Shown: positions 42,301-61,300 of the stretch, piece after piece | Layout: the number at the start of each line of letters is the position of its first letter | How positions within the stretch are numbered: the first letter of the stretch is position 1 | Assembly (NCBI GenBank): GCA_018389105.1 | Contig: JACATO010001040.1 | Location: forward strand, 434,001 to 498,000 | Source of the DNA: Nautilus pompilius | Taxonomy: Eukaryota > Mollusca > Cephalopoda > Nautilida > Nautilidae | Direction: 5' to 3' | DNA length: 64,000 nt | Notes under the pieces: generated by a model | Told to the model about the DNA's origin: nothing | Database searches by the model: none | The model's input: the letters and a program-made list of their open reading frames with translations, nothing else | Position numbers and translations under genes: made by a program

Positions 42301-43307
42301 TGTGGGTGTTGTCCACCAGCCCCCTTTCTCCAAGCTCCCTGTAGTCTTCTATCCAGACCGTGTGTGTGTTTTTAATTCTTCGATCGGGGTTTACTTCGTG
42401 GTTCTTCTCAACAAAAAAAAAAAAAAAGCCAGCTGCCATCATCGCAATACCACCCCCCCCCCCACACACCGACCGGAATACGATCGCAGTTGGGAGGTAA
42501 ATAACAATAACCCCGACTCTAATCGAAGTTCGGCTCCTCCACGTTTGTCGTCGTGAGCGATGTCCTCGCCCCCCCCCCTCACATCTGCTACAAACAATAG
42601 CAGGTGGAAGGAATACCGACTATTCGGGGCCAAGAGCAACCTTTTGTTTACCAGACCGACTCCAGGTTACTGAGAGACGACAGCGGGTCCAGCCACAGAC
42701 CGGGGGGGGTCGTCGTCGTCGTCAATACGATTCGGGGGAGGAGAGGTGCTGGGGGGGGGGACACTTTTGTTTACCAGACCGACTCCAGGTTACTGAGACG
42801 ACAGCGGGTCCACCCACAGACCGGGGGTCGTCGTCGTCGTCAATACGATTCGGGGGAGGGGGCAGGGACCAGGTCGGAGGTTGTCATGGCCCAGCGATCT
42901 GGGTCACTCATTGTTTTTGGCCACCGCGGGCGACTCTCTTCAGTCAAACAACAAAGATGATGATCGATGTTCCGCACGACGACGACGACGACGAGGGAGG
43001 AGGAGGGAGCAGCAGCAGCCGTCACCGTATTTACGGATATCCTCGAATAGAAGCCGAAATAACCCGCCGCCCTTTTCTCCCCCCCTCCCAAGCCAACTCT
43101 TCCTCTGGAAAGTTGGGGGGGGGGAGAGAGAGTGAGAGAGACCTCCTCCTCCTATTCCCCGGTTCTCCCGCCGTAACTTGGCTCCCCGGCAGAAGACCGG
43201 AGGCGCGAGCCAGCCGGAAAATAACTGGAAGCCGGCTGCGAGACGAACGTTTGCGCGGTTATTCCGACAAAGAAAATGGAAGATGAGAAAAGAAATTCAC
43301 TCACCAT
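33339..43307 (-). CDS. CALM: Calmodulin, complete gene (5 coding exons)
   Basis: The minus-strand exons 43307-43305, 39750-39720, 35450-35307, 34297-34055 and 33367-33339 join in frame to 149 codons plus stop, exactly the animal calmodulin length. Four intact EF-hand loops are visible: [12 protein letters not shown] (residues 21-32), [12 protein letters not shown] (57-68), [12 protein letters not shown] (94-105) and [12 protein letters not shown] (130-141). The C-terminus is FVTMMTSK, as in invertebrate calmodulins. Calmodulin is the universal cytosolic calcium sensor that activates kinases, phosphatases and channels. All introns are GT-AG. The first exon contributes only the ATG, as in vertebrate CALM genes; coding lengths are 3/31/144/243/29, where vertebrates have 107+136 in place of 243. 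The promoter lies in a CpG-rich island. No coding lesion is seen. Confidence 0.97.
33368..34054 (-). other. Calmodulin intron 4
   Basis: 687-nt AT-rich intron, GTAAAT to TTTCAG. No features seen apart from A/T runs. Confidence 0.8.
34055..34297 (-). CDS. CALM: Calmodulin exon 4 (243 nt, EF-hands 2 to 4)
   Basis: Acceptor CTCTCTAG then GTAATGGTACAATT; donor GAAG|GTAAAT at 34054. Encodes from [20 protein letters not shown] to DGQVNYE. 243 equals the sum of the 107- and 136-nt vertebrate exons, so one intron is absent relative to vertebrates. The open frame continues 13 codons into the intron, which is not coding. Confidence 0.96.
35307..35450 (-). CDS. CALM: Calmodulin exon 3 (144 nt, EF-hand 1)
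   Basis: Acceptor TTTTTTACAG then AATTTAAAGAGG (completing Glu, then [14 protein letters not shown]); donor GATG|GTGAGT at 35306. Exactly 144 nt, the conserved length of this exon. Confidence 0.96.
35451..39719 (-). other. Calmodulin intron 2
   Basis: 4.27-kb AT-rich intron. It contains the unrecognised 156-codon plus-strand open frame at 35917-36387 and a CAA repeat near 38660-38677; nothing else could be supported. Confidence 0.75.
35917..36387 (+). other. Unrecognised 156-codon open frame antisense to calmodulin intron 2
   Basis: I do not recognise this protein. The frame starts at ATG 35917, is open nine further codons upstream (CAA ATC CTT TCA ...), and ends at TAA 36385-36387. An open run of about 165 codons is unlikely by chance in such AT-rich DNA. 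The product is soluble-looking, without a signal peptide or membrane helix, with a Trp/Lys-rich middle ([17 protein letters not shown]) and an Ala/Thr-rich tail. TCCTTTCAG just before 35911 resembles a splice acceptor, so it could be a terminal exon; it could also be a fragment of a retrocopy or mobile element. A TTACAGAATAAAC near 36470 could serve as a poly(A) signal. Confidence 0.35.
39720..39750 (-). CDS. CALM: Calmodulin exon 2 (31 nt)
   Basis: Acceptor TTTAAATAG, then GCTGATCAGTTAACAG... encoding [10 protein letters not shown] plus one base, then donor GTATAC. 31 nt with entry phase 0, identical in length and phase to vertebrate exon 2. It joins directly to ATG-only exon 1. Confidence 0.95.
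39751..43304 (-). other. Calmodulin intron 1 (from promoter A)
   Basis: 3.55-kb intron between the ATG exon and exon 2. The exon-proximal part (about 42.3-43.3 kb) is the CpG/G-rich half of the island, including the tandem G-rich units. The rest is AT-rich, with a GTCT microsatellite near 41040-41059. First introns of this kind often hold regulatory sequence; no specific site can be proved. Confidence 0.7.
42641..42865. repeat. Tandem pair of about 123-bp G-rich units (copy A)
   Basis: Two units starting at 42641 and 42764, each running TTTGTTTACCAGACCGACTC, a CAGCGGGTCCA-CCACAGACC block, a G run, (CGT)n and CAATACGATTCGGGGGAG. The same pair occurs in copy B, so the tandem duplication came before the segmental one. 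G runs of 8-10 could form quadruplexes on the plus strand (inference). Confidence 0.85.
43305..43307 (-). CDS. CALM: Calmodulin exon 1A (ATG only) with donor
   Basis: Minus strand reads AAAATCCGCAATG|GTGAGTGAAT, so the initiator codon is the last codon of the exon, with a perfect GTGAGT donor at 43304-43299. Splicing to 39750 gives MADQLTEEQ in frame. The 5' UTR lies at higher coordinates in the CpG-rich island and includes a CAA-rich stretch (about 43380-43422) if transcription starts above it. The start site is not determined. Confidence 0.88.
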
Positions 43308-44640
43308 TGCGGATTTTCAGAGACCTGGGTAAGGAAATTTTCTCGGGTGGAAATGCAAAATGGCTGGCGTGTGTCTGTTTTTTTTGTTGTTTTGTTGTTG
43401 TTGTTTGTTGTTGTTGTTTTTTCTTCTTCCCTTTTCTCTCCCCGGCGGCTAACACAGTCGGCTCTGAGATACGATGGTCGAAACGGTCAGTAGTAATTCT
43501 TCCGCGCCGTCCCCCGATTCGAACGTTCCGAAGACACTTTCCCCCGTATAAATTCTCGGCGGTTGTAAGTCGGAGTGCGATCGATTAAATGTTGAAAGAC
43601 GAACCCCGAAAAAAAAAAACTTAAATATTCGACGAGCGGCTGCGACCGAACTACTTCGCTCCTCTCTACTTACAACACAGGACACGGTTATTAGGCTGTG
43701 TTCGGGCGCCAACATTCATAACGGAAACCATAGCAACGACGTTTTTCATTGGTCAGTTAACACCTGCAATGCGACAGCGGTCGCCCTGCATTGATGCCGA
43801 GTTCAGAAAGCCGGAAAATGTCCCTGCAGGCTGACGTGGATTTCGCCCCGATGGCCCGAGGAGGGGGGAAAACCGTGTGAACGATAGAACTTTCGCTCGT
43901 CTAGAATTATTTGTCGGAAAGGAGACGAACCCACAGATATCGCACGCATATTATATAAACCACGCAGAGTATGGCAGAACCAACCTAACACGATATGGTA
44001 TTTCTCCACCCCCCCTCCCTTCCTCTTCTTTTTTGAAAAGAAAATCATTTACTGTTACATATTCATTCATTTAATTCCACAGAAATTTTATAAATTTCAA
44101 AATTCGTAAAGATAACCTACTAACTAACCTAAGCCTTCCCCCCCCCAAAAAAGGAAGGAAAAAAAATATATATTTTCAATCAATATTGTGGATTATGTTA
44201 ATAAATCGGCTCGTCCTCAGTTTGGTAGCCGTCTGCCCCACCCCAACCTGTACGTCCGGGTGGTAATCAATGCTTATTTACACACTGGCGGGTGTCCGTT
44301 CGACATTAACCCTGACGACGACGGGATTCGTTCCATCTACAGCTTCACGTACACACACACACAGGTCTCCGCAATTAGAAGCAAAGCAAAACAAACATTG
44401 GGGCGGGGCTAATTAGCAGTCGGCGATATCACACCTGCTGACAACAAGTACCCGGAAACCCTCGTAGTGCAGATGCGATGTTAAGTATATTTGTTGTCCG
44501 GTTAAAGCAAAAGCAGACGTTTGTTTGGTGTGTGGGAAACGAACATTAATCTTAATTATATGGAAGTTCTCTTCACCCCCATCAATCCGGTCGCCAGCCA
44601 GCCCCACCATAGATCGCACAAATGTTTCGGTTCGGTGCCG

Positions 44641-59343: not shown

Positions 59344-61300
59344 TGCGGATTTTCAGAGACCTGGGTAAGGAAATTTTCTCGGGTGGAATAAAAGGGGTGG
59401 AATAAAACGCCCCAGAAGACGACACCGACTGCGTGCGTTTGTTGTTTTGTTGTTGTTTTTTTTTTTCTCCCCTGTTGTTGTTGTTGTTGTTTTCTTCCCC
59501 CCCAACGGGCGATGGTCGAAACAGTCGGTAGTAATTCTTCCGCGCCGTCCCCGATTCGAACGTTCCGAAGACACTTCCCCGTATAAATTCTCGGCGGTTG
59601 TAAGCCGAAGCACGGTCGGACGAGCGTTTAAATGTCGAAAGACGAACCTCCCCCCTCCCCCCTCCCCAAACCCCAAAAAAAAAAAAAAGAAAAACGACAC
59701 CTCGTCCAATATTCGACGAGCGGCTGCGACCGGACTACTTCGCTCCTCTCCTTTACAACACGTGGAGGGAACGCGGTTGTTCGGCTGTGTTCGGGCGCCA
59801 ACACATTCATAACGGAAACCATAGCAACGACGTTTTTCATTGGTCAGTTAACGCCTGCAATGCGACAGCGGTCGCCCTGCATTGATGCCGAGTTCAGAAA
59901 GCCGGGAAATGTCCCTGCGGGCTGACGTGGATTTCGCCCCGATGGCCCGAGGAGGGGGGGAAAACCGTGTGAACGATAGAAGTAGAAATTTCCAGTCGTA
60001 CCCTGTCTGTCCCTTTATCGAGAGGGAGTGCCGATCGGGGGGATAAGCCCCGCTTCTGTAGCGAGTAGTATACCGAATAGCAGTAGTGGTACCTCATCGC
60101 CATTTCCGTCGGCCGGTGTTTCCTGATGATGATGATGATTCTCCTGCCTTCCCTCCCCCCCCCCCAACCCGGTTCTCTCTGTTAGGATTTATTTACACAC
60201 ATTTCCACGAAATCTGGGCAAACTTTGCTTAAGAATCAAGACGGAAAGGAAACTTTCCTTTTCCGTATATATATATATATTCTGGGCCATCTATTTCCAG
60301 CATCCGTCTTCCCCCTCCGGTGTAAGTCGATCGAAACAAGTGTTTTCAGCTGTTCTCCACAGAATTATTTGGATCAGTGCTGACACGGAGAAGCCCCTAA
60401 TTTCGAGCTGATGGTTTTTATTTAACCATTTAGCTCTTGGTTTGTTTTTTTTCGATTCAGATGGTCCCGGGAGTGGGGGAGGGAGTGTGGCAAGACAACC
60501 CGATATCGATGCATGCGCTCGGGGTCTCTCCTCCACCCCCCACCGTTTTGTCTGAATGCCTCTTCGCCTCTAAACTAAACAAAAATAAATATTTACGGGG
60601 GCCCCCTAAAAGGAGGGGTGGTGGTTTTGCCCGTCGGTGAGAGAGCACATGTTGGGAAGTGCTTTAGCTCGTACGTATTTCGGTCAGACTCCTCCCCGAC
60701 GGTAATAGTGCAGCAGGCTCTCCCCGGTGGCAGCTCGGGGGAAGTTCGCCGCATTGCGGACAGGATGTTTTAAAAATATTTTTCATTTTTGAACTCTCGC
60801 AGGCTGAAGGGCGGGCGGGACTCGGCCGATGCCGAACGGCTAAGGCTCGGTGCTCCGGAAGGAATAGCATTCGCGAGTCCTAACTGGCTTGCATCAGAAT
60901 TTTTTTTTTCTTTTTACTACTTCCTCTTGTCGTGACTCGGGATTGTCGGTATTCTTTCGACCGTAAACGCCGTGTATTTTGACCACCCCCAGTCAAGTTT
61001 GGACATGTTCCGTTTAACAATAAATTTACACGTCGCGAAAGTTCTCAGCCCCCCCCCCCCGGGTGTTGCTTCATGTCGGAACGAGTCGATTCCCAACTGC
61101 CTTCCAATAATCGCAAAATTGCTGCTGTGGTGATCTTATCAAGGGGTACCCCCCTCCTTTTTTTTGTTTTTTTTTTTTTTTTTTTTTTGCAGTAGTTTAA
61201 TAGAAACATCTAAATGAAAGCGAGCGAGCTTTCCGAAACACGTGTTTCCGGTTGGATTTGCCGCACTCACCTGTCTGTTTATTATTGTATTTTTTGGTTG

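Follow-up and report, generated by a model that had tools for sequence, protein, structure and literature searches.

Two tandem homologous promoters probably serve a single calmodulin gene in Nautilus pompilius

Introduction

A calmodulin gene of Nautilus pompilius, read from the minus strand of a 64-kb window (contig JACATO010001040.1, positions 434,001 to 498,000), has its promoter and first exon present twice, and the question that this locus raises is whether both copies serve the one gene. A sequence-only reading had claimed that about 1.25 kb at 42641-43889 (copy A) is repeated directly at 58665-59981 (copy B), 16 kb apart, and had proposed two alternative promoters, one old and one new, perhaps divided between tissues. 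The repeat was confirmed by a genome search (E = 0), with 80% identity across the full length; all coordinates given here are positions in the window, and genome searches covered the 727.6-Mb assembly with its 2558 contigs. We consider it likely, with a probability of about 0.72, that the locus has two tandem homologous promoters for one calmodulin gene and that the same protein is made from either, and signals in the DNA suggest that transcription starts at copy B.

Two copies of the promoter and first exon

42641-43889, minus strand: copy A, with the proximal promoter, 5' leader, end of the ATG-only exon 1 and start of intron 1
58665-59981, minus strand: copy B, with the distal promoter and the order of parts as in copy A
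43305-43307, minus strand: initiator ATG of exon 1A, donor GTGAGT from 43304
59341-59343, minus strand: initiator ATG of exon 1B, donor GTGAGT from 59340
43724-43839, minus strand: conserved upstream block of copy A, with X-box-like 43724-43737, CCAAT 43748-43752 and CRE-like 43832-43839
59815-59930, minus strand: conserved upstream block of copy B, with X-box-like 59815-59828, CCAAT 59839-59843 and CRE-like 59923-59930
42641-42885, minus strand: tandem 123-bp unit, present twice, in intron 1 of copy A
58634-58906, minus strand: 123-bp units of copy B, with a partial third unit adjoining

The BLAST blocks that align copy A with copy B have identities of 93.7% (42641-43146), 93.1% (43624-43889), 88.0% (43472-43605) and 87.4% (43214-43352), and the three longest gap-free families reach 95-98%. 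In a global alignment 31 substitutions fall in the 755 columns that are left when low-complexity sequence is excluded (4.1%), and 24 in the 408 low-complexity columns; the whole alignment has 39 gap runs, with many of the gaps falling within simple repeats. Homology beyond the repeat was not found in the flanks, either upstream (alignment score 13.5 against 14.0 +/- 1.6 for shuffled sequence) or downstream (12.3 against 12.5 +/- 1.5). Copy B is the only other long match to copy A, no third long copy of the promoter being found in the 728-Mb assembly. Residual matches of 30-62 bp, which make up 11 of the 13 rows for the copy A query and four of the six for copy B, we take for simple repeats, those of the copy A query falling on an AAC-rich stretch of the leader. 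The 123-bp unit of intron 1 is doubled in both copies and its unit-specific differences are common to A and B, so that the doubling is either older than the duplication or was brought along through conversion.

The exon end, an ATG followed directly by the donor GTGAGT, lies at 43307-43299 in A and at 59343-59335 in B, and the 42-base block around it is identical between the copies. A string search showed that this exon end, together with upstream strings that we take to be CCAAT, CRE-like and X-box-like sites, is present in both copies, as had been claimed. The CRE-like CCACGTCA and the X-box-like GTTGCTATGGTTTC each occur twice in the 64 kb, one per copy at the positions given above; CCAAT is a common pentamer, of which copy B alone has an extra occurrence on the plus strand (59706-59710).

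One set of downstream exons

39720-39750, minus strand: calmodulin exon 2, 10 residues and one base, AG/GT bounded
35307-35450, minus strand: calmodulin exon 3
34055-34297, minus strand: calmodulin exon 4
33339-33367, minus strand: coding part of calmodulin exon 5, stop TAG at 33341-33339, end counted by hand

Within the window exons 2-5 are single, in keeping with the earlier reading, and a similarity search for missed copies of them between the promoters (43.9-58.6 kb) gave nothing convincing. A bare ATG followed by exons 2-5 yields 149 of the 149 residues of canonical animal calmodulin (a reference entered by hand), and the claim that either copy would give the same protein is therefore borne out at the sequence level, where the donors of 1A and 1B and the acceptor of exon 2 are also intact. 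Nine open reading frames of at least 80 amino acids were scanned, seven of them within 43.8-58.7 kb, and none had a Pfam match, a scan that short exons could escape; hence no rival coding gene was seen between the copies. Elsewhere in the assembly further calmodulin-like matches are found on contigs C2553, C328, C1792 and C1024, some of them close together (for example at C2553:191306 and 198906), and none of these has a long match to the promoter; one short promoter match lies on C1024, which also carries a calmodulin-like gene.

The arrangement that we favour would have polymerase start at either of the islands, with splicing to exon 2 at 39750 from the 1A or the 1B donor. From copy B an intron of 19.6 kb that includes promoter A would be crossed before exon 2 is reached, as against 3.6 kb from copy A, and exon 1B would be spliced to exon 2 with 1A skipped. 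Both messengers would encode the same protein and would differ in 5' leader, intron length and regulatory setting. Between the stretches at 43370-43480 and 59390-59510 the leaders differ sufficiently for the two isoforms to be distinguished. An acceptor-like TTTCCTTACCCAG ends 17 nt 5' of each ATG on the minus strand (43325-43337 in A, 59361-59373 in B). Were that of A used after exon 1B, a 20-nt piece would follow the ATG of B and shift the frame, and it is thus expected to be skipped in transcripts from B.

CpG depletion and strand skew between the copies

45200-57900, minus strand: inter-promoter interval, CpG-depleted, the putative first intron of transcripts from B
43890-45150, no strand assigned: CpG-rich flank upstream of A, not homologous to the flank of B

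For the calmodulin body (33.3-42.0 kb) the median ratio of observed to expected CpG is 0.23; it is 0.14 in the stretch that separates the copies (45.2-57.9 kb) and 0.96 over 61.2-96 kb. The step is located at 58.0-58.25 kb, adjoining copy B, with 0 or 1 CpG in all eight 250-bp bins of 56.0-58.0 kb and then 5, 15, 16 and 18. Both copies are CpG-rich islands, the ratio in copy A reaching 1.62 in 200-bp bins, and among the 85 CpGs common to the two islands three have been lost to TpG or CpA in B only and seven in A only, which is as few as would be expected if both were mostly unmethylated. In the flank upstream of A the 200-bp bins give ratios of 0.81-1.19 at 44.2-45.0 kb and only 0.29 at 44.0-44.2 kb.

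Of the 17 half-kb bins that cover the calmodulin body, 14 have a negative T/A skew on the plus strand, as have 19 of the 25 between the copies, where the skew averages -0.050 over 45.2-57.9 kb. To the left of calmodulin, where the neighbour is on the plus strand, 105 of 134 bins are positive, and beyond copy B the signs are mixed (39 negative and 30 positive in 69 bins). When the skew was calibrated on exons of known strand, the sense strand had an excess of T in eight of nine kinase-exon loci (the exception, L036, being zero) and in five of seven calmodulin-like loci. By this marker, which is right most of the time, the interval between the promoters looks to be transcribed leftwards, as is calmodulin. 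For octopus, one study describes methylated CpGs as clustered on the gene bodies of a subset of highly expressed genes and scarce on transposons, with some genes also methylated at the promoter and others downstream of the gene end (PMC9476566).

A mariner-like pair as internal control

52869-53685, minus strand relative to the 62.7-kb copy: mariner-like copy within the interval, with loss of 10 of 21 ancestral CpGs
62727-63535, plus strand: mariner-like sister copy beyond B, with loss of 0 of 21 ancestral CpGs

The name mariner for the elements at 52.9 and 62.7 kb is our assumption, no family search having named them. The two lie in opposite orientation and are 91-93% alike, and among the 40 places scored, of 4053 candidates, the outer copy has its best match in the inner one, at 91% against at most 84% at the other 38. 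CpG changes were polarised with three further copies, two ambiguous sites being left out, and ancestral CpGs have gone to TpG or CpA at 10 of 21 sites on the inner branch and at 0 of 21 on the outer. Total substitutions number 28 on the inner and 24 on the outer branch, with six unpolarised; counted without polarisation, CpG changes are 12 in the inner copy against none in the outer (P = 0.0005). That the CpG loss is confined to the inner copy points to a methylation-like decay between the promoters and not beyond B. Because CpG decay of the kind expected in a methylated transcription unit spans the distance from B to the gene, the start at B would be a long-standing one that is used in the germline.

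The proposal that there are two alternative promoters is the best explanation of the locus, with the CpG edge at B, the skew and the mariner comparison all fitting it, and we regard it as supported in part: two promoters are likely, the assignment of their ages is not established, and a division between tissues would be conjecture. A number of observations weigh against it. The CpG ratio is below 0.45 in six of eight arbitrary 3-kb loci, depletion being common in this genome, and three of the nine kinase-exon loci are without it; the skew has the wrong sign at two of the seven calmodulin-like loci (L005 and L007), both not CpG-depleted. Furthermore TTC7, the left neighbour, is followed by depletion that reaches about 30 kb beyond its last coding exon, and CpG depletion alone is therefore no exact marker of a gene body. 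Upstream ATGs are absent from the 390 nt of both leaders, which is not significant against dinucleotide shuffles (P = 0.12 and 0.21), and the substitutions are only mildly uneven in their spread along the repeat (P = 0.012), which is not relied on as a sign of purifying selection. In our judgement the weight rests on the edge at B in combination with the strand skew and the transposon control.

Age and order of the copies

That one copy is old and the other new is not established, as the depletion of the interval seems to predate the 4.1% divergence between the copies, which if anything speaks against A simply being the old one. The age estimate was made by hand, presupposes constant rates, depends on 10 CpG losses and uses a mariner-like clock that is not clean, the divergence of the pair being uneven (about 1% over the first 240 columns and more than 10% at the opposite end). 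The inner mariner-like copy has lost 0.65 e-folds of its CpG, with about 18 non-CpG substitutions in about 800 sites (2.3%). The interval has lost about 1.9 e-folds (0.96 to 0.14), which on this rough scale is some three times the mariner-like time, and at such an age a divergence of about 13-14% would be expected between two neutral copies, against the 4.1% seen between A and B.

A depletion that is older than the divergence of the copies implies either that the duplication is younger than the transcription of the interval, which favours B as the older copy, or that constraint or conversion has been at work. The flank of A, CpG-rich over most of 43.9-45.1 kb and non-duplicated, argues against A as a recent insertion into a depleted intron, and copies held alike by constraint or conversion fit both this flank and the age of the depletion better than a younger duplication does. 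Copy B may be the original, or both copies may be old and kept alike in this way; their likeness would persist because both are in use, whether by purifying selection, by gene conversion or by the two together. It is a more tentative suggestion, to which we give somewhat less than an even chance, that both copies are old and active, that gene conversion or selection maintains their likeness across 16 kb, and that they tune the dose of calmodulin between them; in that case promoter A would be traversed by each transcript from B.

Alternative explanations

The low divergence of the copies (31 of 755 columns), with many of the gaps in simple repeats, would also suit a recent segmental copy, in which one of A and B is young and inert, their likeness is a matter of youth and transcripts come from a single copy. 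It would seem unlikely, however, as CpG depletion reaches up to B and the skew of the depleted interval agrees with transcription from there, so that with B inert the edge of this domain would be a coincidence; were A the inert newcomer, a separate explanation would be needed for its CpG-rich flank, which has no second match. Composition suggests only that there is leftward transcription from B, and splice partners are invisible in DNA, so that B might start a different product, either a long non-coding RNA or a minus-strand gene that ends before A, unjoined to exon 2. Against this the calmodulin exon end and its donor are unchanged in B, and between the copies there is no calmodulin exon and no Pfam match in the scanned reading frames of at least 80 amino acids, which makes such a product distinctly improbable.

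A draft assembly could in principle hold two alleles of one promoter placed end to end, but the sequences that flank A and B are unrelated on both sides, the 1.3 kb adjoining A have no second match in the assembly, the 56 matches that 45.2-52.0 kb has elsewhere include 54 in repeats from 49.7 kb on, and the copies diverge by more than 4% with 39 gap runs; an artefact of assembly or haplotype is accordingly very hard to credit. Calmodulin-like genes do lie close together elsewhere, C2553 having two of them and C328 and C1792 several matches, as would suit the remnant of a tandem duplication of the whole gene that later lost its second exon set. With exons 2-5 not traced at 43.9-58.6 kb and no homology beyond the 1.25 kb on either side, next to no weight can be given to this origin. 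A retrocopy is unlikely, since both copies include the upstream sites and part of intron 1.

Neighbouring genes and other features

The left neighbour of calmodulin is TTC7, which is on the plus strand and convergent with it. Four matches to TTC7_N exons lie at window positions -36270 to -21932 (C995:397730-412068), and the last exon is at 1262-1411 on the plus strand, where residues 10-49 match the extreme C-terminus of human TTC7B, a solved structure (E 1.7e-6); this match is outranked, through summed weak repeats, by two designed repeat proteins. The CpG depletion starts near the 5' end of TTC7. The human pairs TTC7B/CALM1 and TTC7A/CALM2 have this neighbourhood too, which would make TTC7 and calmodulin a very old gene pair.

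From 1415 to 31500 the depletion and a T excess of plus-strand type continue for about 30 kb past the stop codon of TTC7, where no coding gene was recognised; a very long 3' untranslated region, read-through or an unknown gene are possible sources of this signal. At 28784-29173 on the minus strand there is a frame of 129 residues with an internal Met and hydrophobic stretches, whose only Pfam match, to PAP_fibrillin, is sub-threshold (19.1 bits where the cut-off is 22, E 0.0014). Between the two promoters, 51577-52000 belongs to a young dispersed repeat, with 96-98% identity to the 21 genomic places listed.

Comparison with known systems

Calmodulin as a protein hardly varies among animals, which leaves mainly its quantity and its location for evolution to act on, and because exon 1 supplies Met alone any effect of the duplication on fitness must come through expression. 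The locus is a clean natural case for the effect of a second copy of a promoter. Furthermore a footprint of CpG decay, with a transposon pair as its control, may serve to locate the long-term 5' edges of transcription units without RNA data in mosaic-methylated invertebrate genomes.

Vertebrate CALM genes likewise have an ATG-only coding part in exon 1 and a phase-0 exon 1/intron 1 structure. We know of no CALM gene with two homologous promoters, and a non-exhaustive search of the open-access literature (titles and the starts of abstracts) found no report of a duplicated calmodulin promoter. To our knowledge alternative promoters are usually unrelated in sequence. Ordinary alternative promoters of animals have two start regions that feed one coding sequence (PMC2923625), as is proposed here; unlike these, copies A and B are clear duplicates of each other. 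For duplicate genes in human, one study remarks that incomplete duplication of the promoter is hard to separate from fast promoter evolution (PMC2687787).

The closest likeness in layout is with the variable-first-exon clusters of vertebrates such as UGT1 and GCNT2, which one account describes as having tandem first exons with their own promoters and shared downstream exons, and for whose tandem variable exons gene conversion has been discussed (PMC1885805). At the sequence level both features of the layout are found at the calmodulin locus, with tandem first exons that each have a promoter-like block of their own and one shared set of downstream exons in the window. In that account the first exons of UGT1 and GCNT2 code for different N-terminal parts (PMC1885805), whereas both first exons here give the ATG only, and it is the promoter that has been duplicated. 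The calmodulin locus thus resembles the UGT1 and GCNT2 type in its layout but is not a member of it.

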